Shown piece after piece: positions 34,624 through 43,058 of a stretch of DNA of 44,158 bases (position 1 is its first letter; every line of letters begins with the position of its first letter). The DNA comes from Winogradskyella sp. (GTDB lineage: Bacteria > Bacteroidota > Bacteroidia > Flavobacteriales > Flavobacteriaceae): assembly GCF_025210595.1 (NCBI RefSeq), contig NZ_JAOARH010000025.1:1-44158 (forward strand). The letters are read 5' to 3'. Below the pieces are notes generated by a model, which searched no databases, had not been told where the DNA came from, and saw only the letters and a list, made by a program, of their open reading frames with translations. The position numbers and the translations under genes are program-made.

Positions 34624-35301
34624 ATGCGTATAGATATCATTACTGTTTTACCAGAATTGTTAAAAAGTCCGTTTGAAGCTTCAATACTTAAACGTGCTAT
34701 TGATGCCAATTTGGTAGAAGTTCACTTTCATAACCTTAGAGATTACACCACAAATAATTATAAATCTGTGGACGATTACCAATTCGGTGGTGGAGCTGGT
34801 ATGGTTATGATGATTGAGCCTATAGACAAATGCATCTCTGGTTTACAAGCTGAGCGCAATTATGATGAGATTATTTATATGACGCCAGATGGTGAGCGCC
34901 TTAATCAAAGTATTGCCAACCAAGTATCGCTAAAAGAAAACATAATCATTCTTTGTGGTCATTACAAAGGTGTAGATCAACGTGTGCGCGATAAATTTAT
35001 AACCAGAGAAGTATCTATAGGTGATTATGTACTCTCTGGAGGAGAATTAGGAGCTGCTGTGTTATGTGATGCGGTAATTCGGTTAATACCAGGTGTATTA
35101 GGTAATGAGACTTCTGCACTAACTGATTCGTTTCAAGATAATTTATTAGCACCACCAATTTATACCAGACCAAGAGAATATAAAGGTATGAAAGTGCCAG
35201 AAGTTTTGTTTAGCGGTAATTTTGGAGAAATAGAAAAATGGCGTGAAGAACAAGCCTACGAAAGAACTAAAGAAAGACGACCAGATCTTTTGAATGATTA
35301 G
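34624..35301 (+). CDS. trmD: tRNA (guanine(37)-N1)-methyltransferase TrmD
   Basis: Methylates G37 next to the anticodon and prevents frameshifting. The 225 residues match the family. The N-terminus [20 protein letters not shown], the Gly-rich [17 protein letters not shown], the SAM-knot segments [13 protein letters not shown] and [14 protein letters not shown], and [11 protein letters not shown] are all present. The C-terminal helical domain ends [12 protein letters not shown]. The TAG stop lies inside the first unit of the TGATTAG tandem repeat that follows. Confidence 0.98.
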
Positions 35302-35409
35302 TGATTAGTGATTAGTGATTAGTGATTAGTGATTAGTGATTAGTGATTAGTGATTAGTGATTAGTGATTAGTGATTAGTGATTAGTGATTAGTGATTAGT
35401 GATTAGTGA
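35295..35409 (+). repeat. Tandem repeat, 16 copies of TGATTAG
   Basis: The 7-nt unit TGATTAG is repeated 16 times without error, from 35295 to 35406, followed by a partial TGA. The first copy carries the trmD stop codon. A reverse-complement piece, ACTAATCACT, follows at 35424-35433 and could pair with any unit. The repeat fills most of the trmD-rplS gap. Perfect short-unit arrays like this usually change copy number by slippage. Confidence 0.98.
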
Positions 35410-35497: not shown

Positions 35498-35578
35498 TAT
35501 CTTTGCAGCCAATTTTGGATTAACCTCTGGCGAAAACCGTGAATGTTGATTTAAAACAACCATAATAAAAGAAAAAAC
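35498..35578 (+). promoter_or_regulatory. Promoter -7 element and leader of rplS
   Basis: TATCTTTG at 35498-35505 is an exact TAnnTTTG match. With a start near 35511, the leader before the rplS ATG is about 68 nt, longer than the 12-40 nt seen for most genes here. It contains short pairings (CCAA/TTGG, TGG/CCG). Control of L19 through this leader is possible but not shown. Confidence 0.55.
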
Positions 35579-35929
35579 ATGGATTCTTTAGTAAAATTTG
35601 TACAAGACGAATTTGTAACAAAAAAAGATTTACCAGAATTTAGTGCTGGTGATACAATTACAGTATATTACGAAATTAAAGAAGGAAACAAAACACGTAC
35701 TCAGTTCTTTAAAGGTGTAGTTTTACAGCGTAAAGGAAGTGGAACTTCAGAAACATTTACTATTCGTAAAATGTCTGGCACTATTGGTGTAGAACGTATC
35801 TTCCCAATAAACTTACCAGCTTTACAAAAAATTGAAGTAAACAAACGTGGTAAAGTACGTAGAGCACGTATATTCTACTTTAGAGGTCTTACTGGTAAAA
35901 AAGCAAGAATTAAAGAAGTTAGAAGATAA
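35579..35929 (+). CDS. rplS: 50S ribosomal protein L19
   Basis: A 116-residue ribosomal protein at the 30S-50S interface. The L19 pattern is complete: FSAGDTITVYYEIKEGNKTR, FFKGVVLQRKGSGTSETFT, IRKMSGTIGVERIFPINLP, the Lys/Arg-rich KRGKVRRARIFYFRGLTGKK and the basic tail. It is close downstream of trmD, as in many bacteria, but has its own promoter and terminator. Confidence 0.99.
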   Translation: MDSLVKFVQDEFVTKKDLPEFSAGDTITVYYEIKEGNKTRTQFFKGVVLQRKGSGTSETFTIRKMSGTIGVERIFPINLPALQKIEVNKRGKVRRARIFYFRGLTGKKARIKEVRR

Positions 35930-35950
35930 TCTAACACACATACTATTTAA

Positions 35951-35977
35951 AAAGCCTTCAATACTGAAGGCTTTTTT
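35951..35977 (+). terminator. Intrinsic terminator after rplS
   Basis: Perfect 10-bp stem AAAGCCTTCA / TGAAGGCTTT with loop ATAC and a T run to 35977. Confidence 0.93.
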
Positions 35978-36039: not shown

Positions 36040-36070
36040 TTTGAATATTCGCAATCTAAATGTAATTTAG
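36040..36070 (+). promoter_or_regulatory. Promoter with -33 and -7 elements at consensus spacing, no gene downstream
   Basis: TTTG at 36040-36043, exactly 19 nt, then TAATTTAG at 36063-36070 (one mismatch to TAnnTTTG). This is the only promoter in the window where I see both elements at the standard spacing. It would start a transcript near 36077. The -7 element overlaps the palindrome TTTAGCTAAA. Confidence 0.55.
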
Positions 36071-36076
36071 CTAAAC

Positions 36077-36566
36077 AATTAACAAGAAACATGACTTATG
36101 TCTAAATTTATGTTAAATTGTATTTAAAGAAACGTTCTTTACATATTGAGTTAGTTTTTTGAGGTTAGCTAACCTCTTGTTTATACAAGTATTGGGTAAT
36201 TAACCATGAAGCTTACGTTTTACAGCATGCTTGCAGGTTGTAAAGTAATAGTGAAAAGCTCTGAGAAAGTAATGGAATCGAAAGTGAACACGAAAAAGAT
36301 GAGCAATGTTTTTTAGAAGTATAGAACACGTAAGTGAAGCATAAAAAAGAAAACATCAAGAAAAACTAATCTTAAAGGAGCTTAGTAGTATCAGGTCAAT
36401 ACATTTTGAAAGATATGAAACGTTTCATTGAAACAGAAACACTTGAACTGAAAAGGATGATGGTAAAAACCTTACAGCCGATTTTGTGAAAGCTTAATAA
36501 GTCACGTTAGTACTGTTTCAAGAAAAGCCATGTCAGCACAGATTTTTCTGAGTGATATGGCTTTTT
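36077..36566 (+). ncRNA. Candidate structured noncoding RNA of about 490 nt
   Basis: This stretch (with its flanks, 35978-36656) has no gene of normal size, but it has a promoter at its start and an intrinsic terminator at its end. Inside are many local palindromes: GAGGTTAGCTAACCTC (36161-36176), CTTGTTTATACAAG (36176-36189), a hairpin closed by TTTACA/TGTAAA (36219-36244), ATGAAACGTTTCAT (36415-36428), and a 9-bp long-range pairing of TTGAAACAG (36428-36436) with CTGTTTCAA (36513-36521). Near the 5' end, GTTCTTTACAT at about 36134 resembles the boxA antitermination element. It is not recognisable as RNase P RNA, tmRNA, SRP RNA or 6S RNA. Two tiny open frames are present (see findings). The call is inference from layout. 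Confidence 0.45.
36523..36566 (+). terminator. Intrinsic terminator closing the candidate RNA
   Basis: A 13-bp stem from AAAAGCCATGTCA and TGATATGGCTTTT (one G-U pair), a small internal loop, a further 4-bp stem CAGA/TCTG, loop TTTT, and a short T run. Confidence 0.8.
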
Positions 36567-36627
36567 GTTTAGCTAAACTTATAAGCTTTCTAATCCTAAA
36601 TTTACTTCTGTATTTTAGAACTTCATT

Positions 36628-36656: not shown

Positions 36657-37229
36657 ATGAATTTACAAGTAATAGACAGCAAAACCTTCAGCCATAAAGA
36701 TTATACATCTATTATTTTACCTAAAGCAGAATACAGCTATTGCACCTTTACTAATTGTAATTTTGAAAATTCTGATGTTTCTAATAATGTATTTCTAGAA
36801 TGTGAATTCAATGACTGCAACTTTAGCAATGTTAATGTTAAGCACACCACATTTAATGATGTTATTTTTAATTCTTGTAAACTGGTTGGTTTAAATTTTA
36901 AAAACTGTAACGACTTTTTGCTAGCTTTTGGTTTTAAAAATTGCAACCTTAACCTAAGTTCATTTGCTGAAATGACTATTAATAAAACTCAATTTACTAA
37001 TTGCAAAATGAATCAGGTTGATTTTTCTCAAGCCCAAGCCAAATCGTGTCTATTTCAAAAATGCGACTTAAAGAATTCTATTTTTGATAGCACCAATCTT
37101 CAAGATTCAAACTTTTCTACTGCATTTAATTTCATAATAAATCCTACCTCCAACAACATTAAAAATGCTACCTTTTCAAAAGAAAATATTGTAGGACTCT
37201 TAAAACCCTTTGGTATAAGAATAATGTAG
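36657..37229 (+). CDS. Pentapeptide repeat protein
   Basis: Started at 36657 (MNLQVIDSKTFSHKDY) the protein is 190 residues. From about residue 25 to 150 it shows the A(N/D)LxF-like five-residue period with Cys, Asn and Phe in the stacked positions: CTFTNCNFENSDVSNNVF, CEFNDCNFSNVNVKHTTF, CLFQKCDLKNSIFDSTNL. This forms a right-handed beta-helix. In the family some members protect gyrase from inhibitors (Qnr-like), but the Cys-rich Asn pattern here is not enough to claim this. It is a short cytosolic protein with no signal peptide. Confidence 0.9.
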   Translation: MNLQVIDSKTFSHKDYTSIILPKAEYSYCTFTNCNFENSDVSNNVFLECEFNDCNFSNVNVKHTTFNDVIFNSCKLVGLNFKNCNDFLLAFGFKNCNLNLSSFAEMTINKTQFTNCKMNQVDFSQAQAKSCLFQKCDLKNSIFDSTNLQDSNFSTAFNFIINPTSNNIKNATFSKENIVGLLKPFGIRIM

Positions 37230-42934: not shown

Positions 42935-43034
42935 GGGCGTTACCTTGCGCTCGTCGAAATATCGTCGAGTACAAGGTCGCGCTATCCACTATATCTTTTG
43001 CCATGCAAAAGGATGCCGTTTCTATCGCTAACGC
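42935..43034 (+). repeat. GC-rich cloverleaf-like intergenic repeat (REP/MITE-like)
   Basis: A 100-bp element that stands out from the AT-rich surroundings. Its ends pair (GCGTTA at 42937-42942 with TAACGC at 43029-43034). Inside are a first hairpin (ACCTTG-CG-CTCG, 42942-42953, with CGAG-TA-CAAGGT, 42966-42977) and a second (ATCTTTTGC with GCAAAAGGAT, 42993-43014, one bulge). From memory, sequences starting GGGCGTTACC and containing a CTATATCTTTT segment recur between genes in Flavobacteriaceae; only one copy lies in this window. It is located between DUF4249 and murQ. Confidence 0.75.
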
Positions 43035-43058
43035 AAAGAAATTCTTTATTTTTATATC

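Follow-up and report, generated by a model that had tools for sequence, protein, structure and literature searches.

The rplS and icd genes of Winogradskyella sp. enclose a gap with a promoter, a series of predicted RNA helices, a terminator, and a pentapeptide-repeat open reading frame (Table 1). The window, that is, the whole stretch of DNA analyzed, is 44,158 nt long, and the gene names rplS, icd, and pentapeptide-repeat are readings of translations. A hairpin with a T-run is found within 160 nt 3' of rplS in 68 of 93 loci, compared with an average of 2.7 in shuffled DNA; this count covers loci with an rplS match and leaves out 9 of 102 without one. Some genera carry the pentapeptide gene between the RNA and icd, others lack it at this place, and many loci are without it. 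Upstream of rplS, Rfam matches the L19-Flavobacteria ribosomal protein leader (35521-35548, plus strand). A perfect tandem array of TGATTAG (35295-35409; 16.4 copies of 7 bases) starts at the end of trmD.

Table 1. Features of the rplS-icd region, in window coordinates.
Feature	Position	Strand	Basis and remarks
rplS	35579-35929	+	Translation reading; 5' neighbour of the RNA gene
rplS terminator	35949-35976	+	Terminator scan; separates the RNA gene from the upstream gene
Sigma-A-type promoter: TTTG (36040-36043), 19 nt, TAATTTAG (36063-36070)	36040-36070	+	Sequence
5' leader hairpin (36075-36084 with 36111-36121)	36075-36121	+	RNAalifold, 25 genus members; begins at the predicted first nucleotide
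Hairpin UAAAG-AAACGUU-CUUUA, including boxA-like GTTCTTT (36134-36140)	36125-36144	+	Alignment, pair counts
Domain 1: helix 36150-36160 with 36360-36371, enclosing several hairpins	36150-36371	+	Helices from 20 other loci, mapped
Domain 2: hairpin with near-invariant core TCAATACATTTTGAAA (36396-36411)	36377-36426	+	Alignments
Domain 3: closed by GAAACAG/CUGUUUC, with inner hairpins	36430-36519	+	Fold from other loci, pair counts
Terminator with sequence-conserved stem AAAAGCCATGTCA/TGATATGGCTTTT	36523-36567	+	Homolog comparison, exact pattern
Pentapeptide-repeat open reading frame	36657-37229	+	Translation reading; between the RNA and icd

Comparative analysis supports positions 36040-36567 as the gene for a large structured noncoding RNA that is confined, in the samples searched, to the family Flavobacteriaceae. 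Comparison of homologs shows the parts of the putative gene to be a promoter, a terminator, a leader hairpin, a UAAAG-(7 nt)-CUUUA hairpin, and three domains, with a fixed place and no conserved protein. The RNA is predicted to start at 36075 and to run for about 490 nt, ending in a T-rich stretch past the terminator stem. The original prediction had placed -33 and -7 elements at exactly 19 nt, and the sequence has TTTG, N19, and the -7 box at just that spacing. The T, A, and TT of the -7 box (36063, 36064, 36067, and 36068) are invariant in 25/25 aligned genus members. The -33 box is less constrained, G being found at 36043 in 16 of the 25. A widened pattern, TTG-N17-22-TAnnTTWR, which was chosen after inspecting the genus promoter alignment, lies upstream of the 5' motif described below in 54 of 77 loci, where shuffling predicts 4.9. 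According to a study on Flavobacterium psychrophilum, the flavobacterial sigma-A box TAnnTTTG sits at -12 to -5 (PMC9723704), and the start at 36075 is predicted from this placement.

A strong terminator had also been predicted, and a stem (36523-36535 with 36553-36565) and T-rich tail are present; a simple terminator scan missed it owing to a loop longer than 8. The TGGCTTT half is present in 65/65 homologs found with model R1 (loci L033-L097; three weak matches, L098-L100, were left out). R1 itself, built on domains 2 and 3, ends in AAAGCCA, so independent evidence comes from the inner bases of the stem and its 3' half alone. The four bases after GCCAT take seven forms. GTCA or ATCA stands with TGAT opposite in 57 of the 65 loci, and five loci change both sides of the stem, with TGTT opposite AATA, AGCA, or GACA. 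Compensatory changes in the stem are also seen by eye in two further loci (L227 and L232). For comparison, rplS terminators were identified at 60 of the 63 loci in this set that include an rplS end; they begin with 22 different hexamers, one of which accounts for 29 of the 60. The close conservation of the terminator stem suggests that it has a second function, such as protein binding. The RNA gene is probably transcribed independently, as we infer from the conserved promoter and terminator.

Distribution in the Flavobacteriaceae

A DNA search of 40 genomes found matches in 25, namely the window's own genome and 24/24 other genomes of the same genus, and none in 15 genomes of other families. 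rplS adjoins the RNA in all 25 genus loci (window included), and icd lies on the other side in 24, the exception being L019. Across 28 loci of other genera, rplS is found in 27 and icd in 25. Model R1 (E ≤0.1) detects the RNA in 69 of 199 family genomes, with a single match in all but two, in which the additional match is weak. The exact terminator pattern is found in 98 of the 199 genomes (97 of 198 genera), and the reversed pattern in none. Nine further genomes have clear R1 matches only, which brings the combined detection to 107/199. The 199 genomes, sampled at nearly one per genus, represent a major marine family, and the RNA detected in 107 of them is absent from the Rfam library used. 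One genome carries the terminator signature on two contigs (G151:C116 and G151:C198), which may be a duplicate or an assembly overlap.

Beyond the family, the terminator pattern is rare. In the order sample it is found in 14 of 296 genomes, 13 of them in the family, and in the class sample in 1 of 295, the window's own genome; 9 of the 295 belong to the family. G491, a genome of another family with a terminator-pattern match, shows none of rplS, icd, and trmD in the 5 kb examined, and we regard its match as a chance one. A terminator scan of named genomes gave at least 119 stretches, or 123 with four loci of the order sample, and 110 of the 123 passed a filter for rplS/icd position. The 13 failures include seven titled as unrelated bacteria, one titled as Saprospiraceae, and one member of the Flavobacteriaceae at a contig end. 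Among the matches listed, the RNA lies in the rplS-icd gap of Winogradskyella, Gelidibacter, Psychroserpens, Algibacter, Maribacter, and Zobellia, as well as Arenibacter, Cellulophaga, Aquimarina, Polaribacter, Tenacibaculum, and Kordia. In the Maribacter and Aquimarina clades, among others, the RNA body has diverged too far for us to align it; the terminator is retained, as is the 5' motif in most gaps.

Apparent divergent versions were noted by eye, unscored, in the first 620 nt after rplS in at least 7 of 18 family genomes, which were chosen mostly because the terminator pattern or R1 had found nothing in them. Among the sequence listed for 12 genomes of other families, no RNA was noticed by eye after rplS. 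By the exact terminator pattern, 0/25 genomes matched in g143 (probably Flavobacterium), the genus best represented in the order sample, and nothing similar was noticed by eye after rplS in six of its genomes. Detection is rare in small genomes: the RNA is found in 3 of 39 genomes below 2.35 Mb, some of which are incomplete, and in 104 of 160 above. Since about half of the family genomes gave no detection, the RNA is either dispensable or diverged beyond these tests.

Fold, covariation and known RNA families

RNAalifold of the 25 genus sequences gave 73 pairs, 32 of them with changes on both sides. The helix that closes domain 1 spans more than 200 nt, and a hairpin within this domain (36327-36336) has a GNRA loop, which by our own count is found in 15 of 25 genus members. 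In domain 2, 5 of 14 pairs of the outer stem change on both sides, and the inner stem UCAA/UUGA is invariant in 25/25. A 9-bp long-range pairing, noted earlier between 36428-36436 and 36513-36521, is exact, and the fold derived from other loci contains a helix at its core (36430-36437 with 36512-36519). On visual inspection, neither a K-turn nor an 11-nt tetraloop receptor was retained as a candidate.

An independent test of the structure used loci found only by the terminator pattern. Thirty-eight of these combined a gap of 500 nt or more with the domain 2 core. Of the 38, 14 were set aside as possible or close genus members, by a cautiously wide hand list, and 4 because the 5' motif stood at an unexpected distance. 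The 20 loci used (L202 included) comprise none titled Winogradskyella and two MAGs titled without a genus, and they match the genus sequences with a best local identity of 67-76%. Their fold has 128 pairs, 75 of which occur as two or more standard pair types that differ at both positions. When this structure was mapped on the genus alignment, 126 pairs remained and 84.8% of 2990 cells were paired, versus 79.5% after column shuffling and 41-45% when the structure was slid by 1-3 columns. Changes on both sides were seen in 52 of the 126 pairs versus 32.2 in shuffles, and 0 of 500 shuffles reached any of five structure measures. Column shuffles ignore relatedness; the slid controls, in which it is preserved, also score clearly lower. 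G-U cells outnumber A-C cells by 310 to 98, which indicates that the plus strand is the RNA. In the window, 105 of 122 mapped pairs form. Folded alone, the RNA sequence of the window is not unusual (z -1.53; 7 of 100 shuffles equally good), and the small helices 10, 11, and 13 and parts of 15 are poorly kept in the genus. Separate folds of six Maribacter-like and eight Aquimarina-like sequences gave changes on both sides in 32 of 117 and 20 of 139 pairs, respectively, and no RNA body shared between these groups and the window group could be aligned. A third clade group, with 3 usable sequences, was left out of the folding.

The original prediction had described a large noncoding RNA, perhaps restricted to the Flavobacteriaceae, and had proposed searches of Rfam and of relatives and a check for covariation. 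The homologs, the covariation, and the spread of the terminator pattern in the samples searched agree with this description, and compensatory changes are present. It had also recognized no standard bacterial RNA. Rfam release 15 (4227 models) gave no family at gathering score in the RNA of the window. Its 10 sub-threshold matches up to E 5 are all far below gathering, and the best, Phe_leader (E 0.0021), lies over the rplS terminator region. At 20 other loci, no family was found in the RNA at gathering, and at 18 further loci the matches with E ≤0.01 were the L19-Flavobacteria leader, one Flavo-1, and 5S/23S rRNA, none of them in the RNA. A match to the Flavo-1 sRNA family also lies at 42971-43039 of the window, on the minus strand.

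Known housekeeping RNAs were located elsewhere. The genome's only match to RNase P (RF00010), of which the RNA might have been a divergent form, is at G000:C129:8399-8714. tmRNA (RF00023) is at G000:C5:8179-8573, with weaker partial matches elsewhere and none on C50; a full-length tmRNA match above cut-off was found in 4/4 genomes. 6S RNA is likewise rejected, with RF01685 matches elsewhere in 6/6 genomes (5 over cut-off; at G000:C98:8860-8988 in the window's own genome). RF00013 (6S) matched 0 of 4 genomes. 6S-Flavo RNA (RF01685) resembles the RNA of the rplS-icd gap as a noncoding RNA of the same bacteria, but its model has 108 positions. In the papers listed by literature searches, titles and abstract openings contain no description of an RNA between rplS and icd; subscription papers and preprints lay outside this scope. 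A text search of PMC11109978 gave no match, and PMC5069720 was also queried. There is strong comparative support for regarding the RNA as a candidate new class that belongs to no catalogued family tested, with precedents, as a kind, in other large ornate RNAs.

The absence of a normal gene behind the promoter, also claimed earlier, is borne out by the reading frames of at least 25 aa, none of which is conserved. The four such frames in the stretch are kept in 9, 3, 14, and 7 of 25 members (window counted), and in 17 of 25 the stretch is longer or shorter than its counterpart in the window by a number of bases that is not divisible by 3. Given the poor frame retention and these out-of-frame length changes, a protein-coding frame is rejected. 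Open reading frames of 27-48 aa do occur, and the one kept best (14/25) is on the minus strand; a conserved DNA element or small-protein gene is nevertheless scarcely credible, given the length shifts, the covariation, and the bias of G-U over A-C.

The leader hairpin and the boxA-like motif

A boxA-like sequence near the 5' end, GTTCTTTACATATTG in the window, was part of the original prediction. GTTCTTT (36134-36140) is invariant in 25/25 genus members, and the ACATATTG that follows varies, with most members differing. A motif of the type AAG-(2-5)-xGTTCTTT is found in 77 of 102 gaps, compared with 0.4 in shuffled DNA, and as defined is not found in the remaining 25. Allowing one mismatch, the pattern matches 44 of 296 order genomes, 25 of these outside the family; the reversed control also gives many matches, so the pattern at one mismatch is not discriminating. 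The exact matches in the order sample are four (G193, G459, G464, and G170), all in the family. In the main predicted fold, the motif is largely paired, CUUU with upstream AAAG, and the outermost pair of this hairpin is U-A in 19 and C-G in 4 of 25 members. In a short-range RNAalifold fold of the genus members, the motif instead finds its partners downstream. The long-range helix of domain 1 has its 5' strand within 10 nt after the motif.

In E. coli, the order of the rrn leader is boxB, boxA, and boxC, and boxA recruits antitermination factors, as described in PMC10250234. The rRNA leaders of the Flavobacteriaceae contain GTTCATTAACATATTG in 4 of 6 cases and near variants in 2 of 6 (two leaders from one genome), and GTTCATTGACATATTG is present in the spacer before 23S in 4/4 readable cases. 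In these leaders, the promoter is followed by a hairpin (seen by eye in L257, L258, and L259) and then by GTTCATTAACATATTG or a near variant, the same order as in the RNA gene. Like an rrn leader, the RNA gene has a hairpin 5' of the boxA-like motif after the promoter, namely the leader hairpin in the consensus of 25 genus members, and an untranslated folded RNA follows the GTTC-TT motif. There are also differences. The family rRNA boxA has GTTCATT where the RNA gene has GTTCTTT, and the window sequence departs from the commonest family rRNA-leader boxA by one substitution and one deletion. Moreover, the motif of the RNA gene can pair with AAAG, and no rRNA lies downstream.

The boxA-like motif is conserved and resembles rRNA boxA, and an antitermination role is unproven. 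We do not accept boxA as a proven antitermination site, since only GTTCTTT is invariant and the motif can pair with AAAG. Because most of the motif can sit in a hairpin, rrn-like transcription of the RNA gene is a possible mode that we infer from sequence and analogy. If the rrn-like leader is real, boxA-type transcription in this family serves an RNA other than rRNA.

Possible functions and related systems

The best reading, which we find slightly more likely than not, is a trans-acting structured noncoding RNA of about 490 nt, usually single copy, which probably acts as an RNA-protein scaffold. RNA polymerase would leave the promoter with an rrn-like Nus complex recruited via the leader hairpin and the boxA-like motif, and this complex would let the long untranslated RNA be finished. 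The tethered motif may help the long-range helix of domain 1 to close. Once finished, the RNA would serve one or several proteins as a scaffold, or sequester them, and these proteins may bind the near-invariant hairpin of domain 2 and the stem of the terminator. The scaffold role is proposed by elimination of other roles. A tentative elaboration, which may well be wrong, is a family-wide ribonucleoprotein RNA that borrows the transcription mode of rRNA, in which the rrn-like leader (hairpin and boxA) loads a Nus complex, this complex brings about closure of the long-range helix during transcription, and the terminator stem, fixed in sequence, also serves as a site for protein binding. If true, a non-ribosomal RNA of the housekeeping type would be produced by transcription of the ribosomal RNA type.

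Base pairing with mRNAs near their start codons by conserved loops, above all UACAUU of domain 2, would make the RNA a regulatory sRNA. The near-invariant short core within a hairpin resembles a possible sRNA seed, and a structured genus-wide sRNA, Rfp18, is reported to affect protease mRNAs in F. psychrophilum (PMC9723704). Against this role, which we consider unlikely, much of the invariant core is paired, about 490 nt with many covarying helices far exceeds the structure needed for a seed, and no copy of the core string was detected in Maribacter, Aquimarina, or further clades that retain the terminator. Rfp18 and other F. psychrophilum sRNAs resemble the RNA in being independent structured transcripts of a related genus (PMC9723704). 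rplS is absent from the main text of that paper, and no RNA like that of the rplS-icd gap was noticed by eye after rplS in the six genomes of g143, which is probably Flavobacterium.

If the RNA were a cis-acting leader or attenuator, its terminator would control icd downstream, alone or together with the pentapeptide gene. This would suit the order rplS-RNA-icd, kept across many genera, and the conserved terminator stem. Such a role is quite improbable. A promoter-like TAnnTTTG lies between the terminator and icd in 69 of 95 loci, where a mononucleotide shuffle predicts 8.6, so icd has its own promoter-like box and an icd leader is unlikely at most loci; given the 26 loci without the box, a separate icd promoter is a tendency rather than proof for each locus. 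In addition, the pentapeptide gene intervenes in some genera, and in 7 of 18 family genomes icd follows rplS within 300 nt with no RNA noticed by eye. Even less probable is a ribozyme or the relic of a mobile intron. The multi-domain fold and the GNRA loops in 15 of 25 genus members would suit such an identity, but the RNA is usually single copy at one fixed locus, and, with no Rfam family at gathering, the sub-threshold matches within it (E up to 5) are to neither ribozymes nor introns.

Few structured bacterial RNAs reach such a size. The flavobacterial RNA shares large size, intricate structure, and conserved nucleotides with OLE, GOLLD, and ROOL. These three are among the models of Rfam release 15, and the flavobacterial RNA differs from them in matching no Rfam family. 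OLE and its like are described as large, intricately structured bacterial RNAs, and the biochemical function of OLE is called mysterious (PMC9723947 and PMC12286853). Because the flavobacterial RNA sits at one place and many of its hosts can be cultured, it could be probed directly by deletion, SHAPE, and pull-down.
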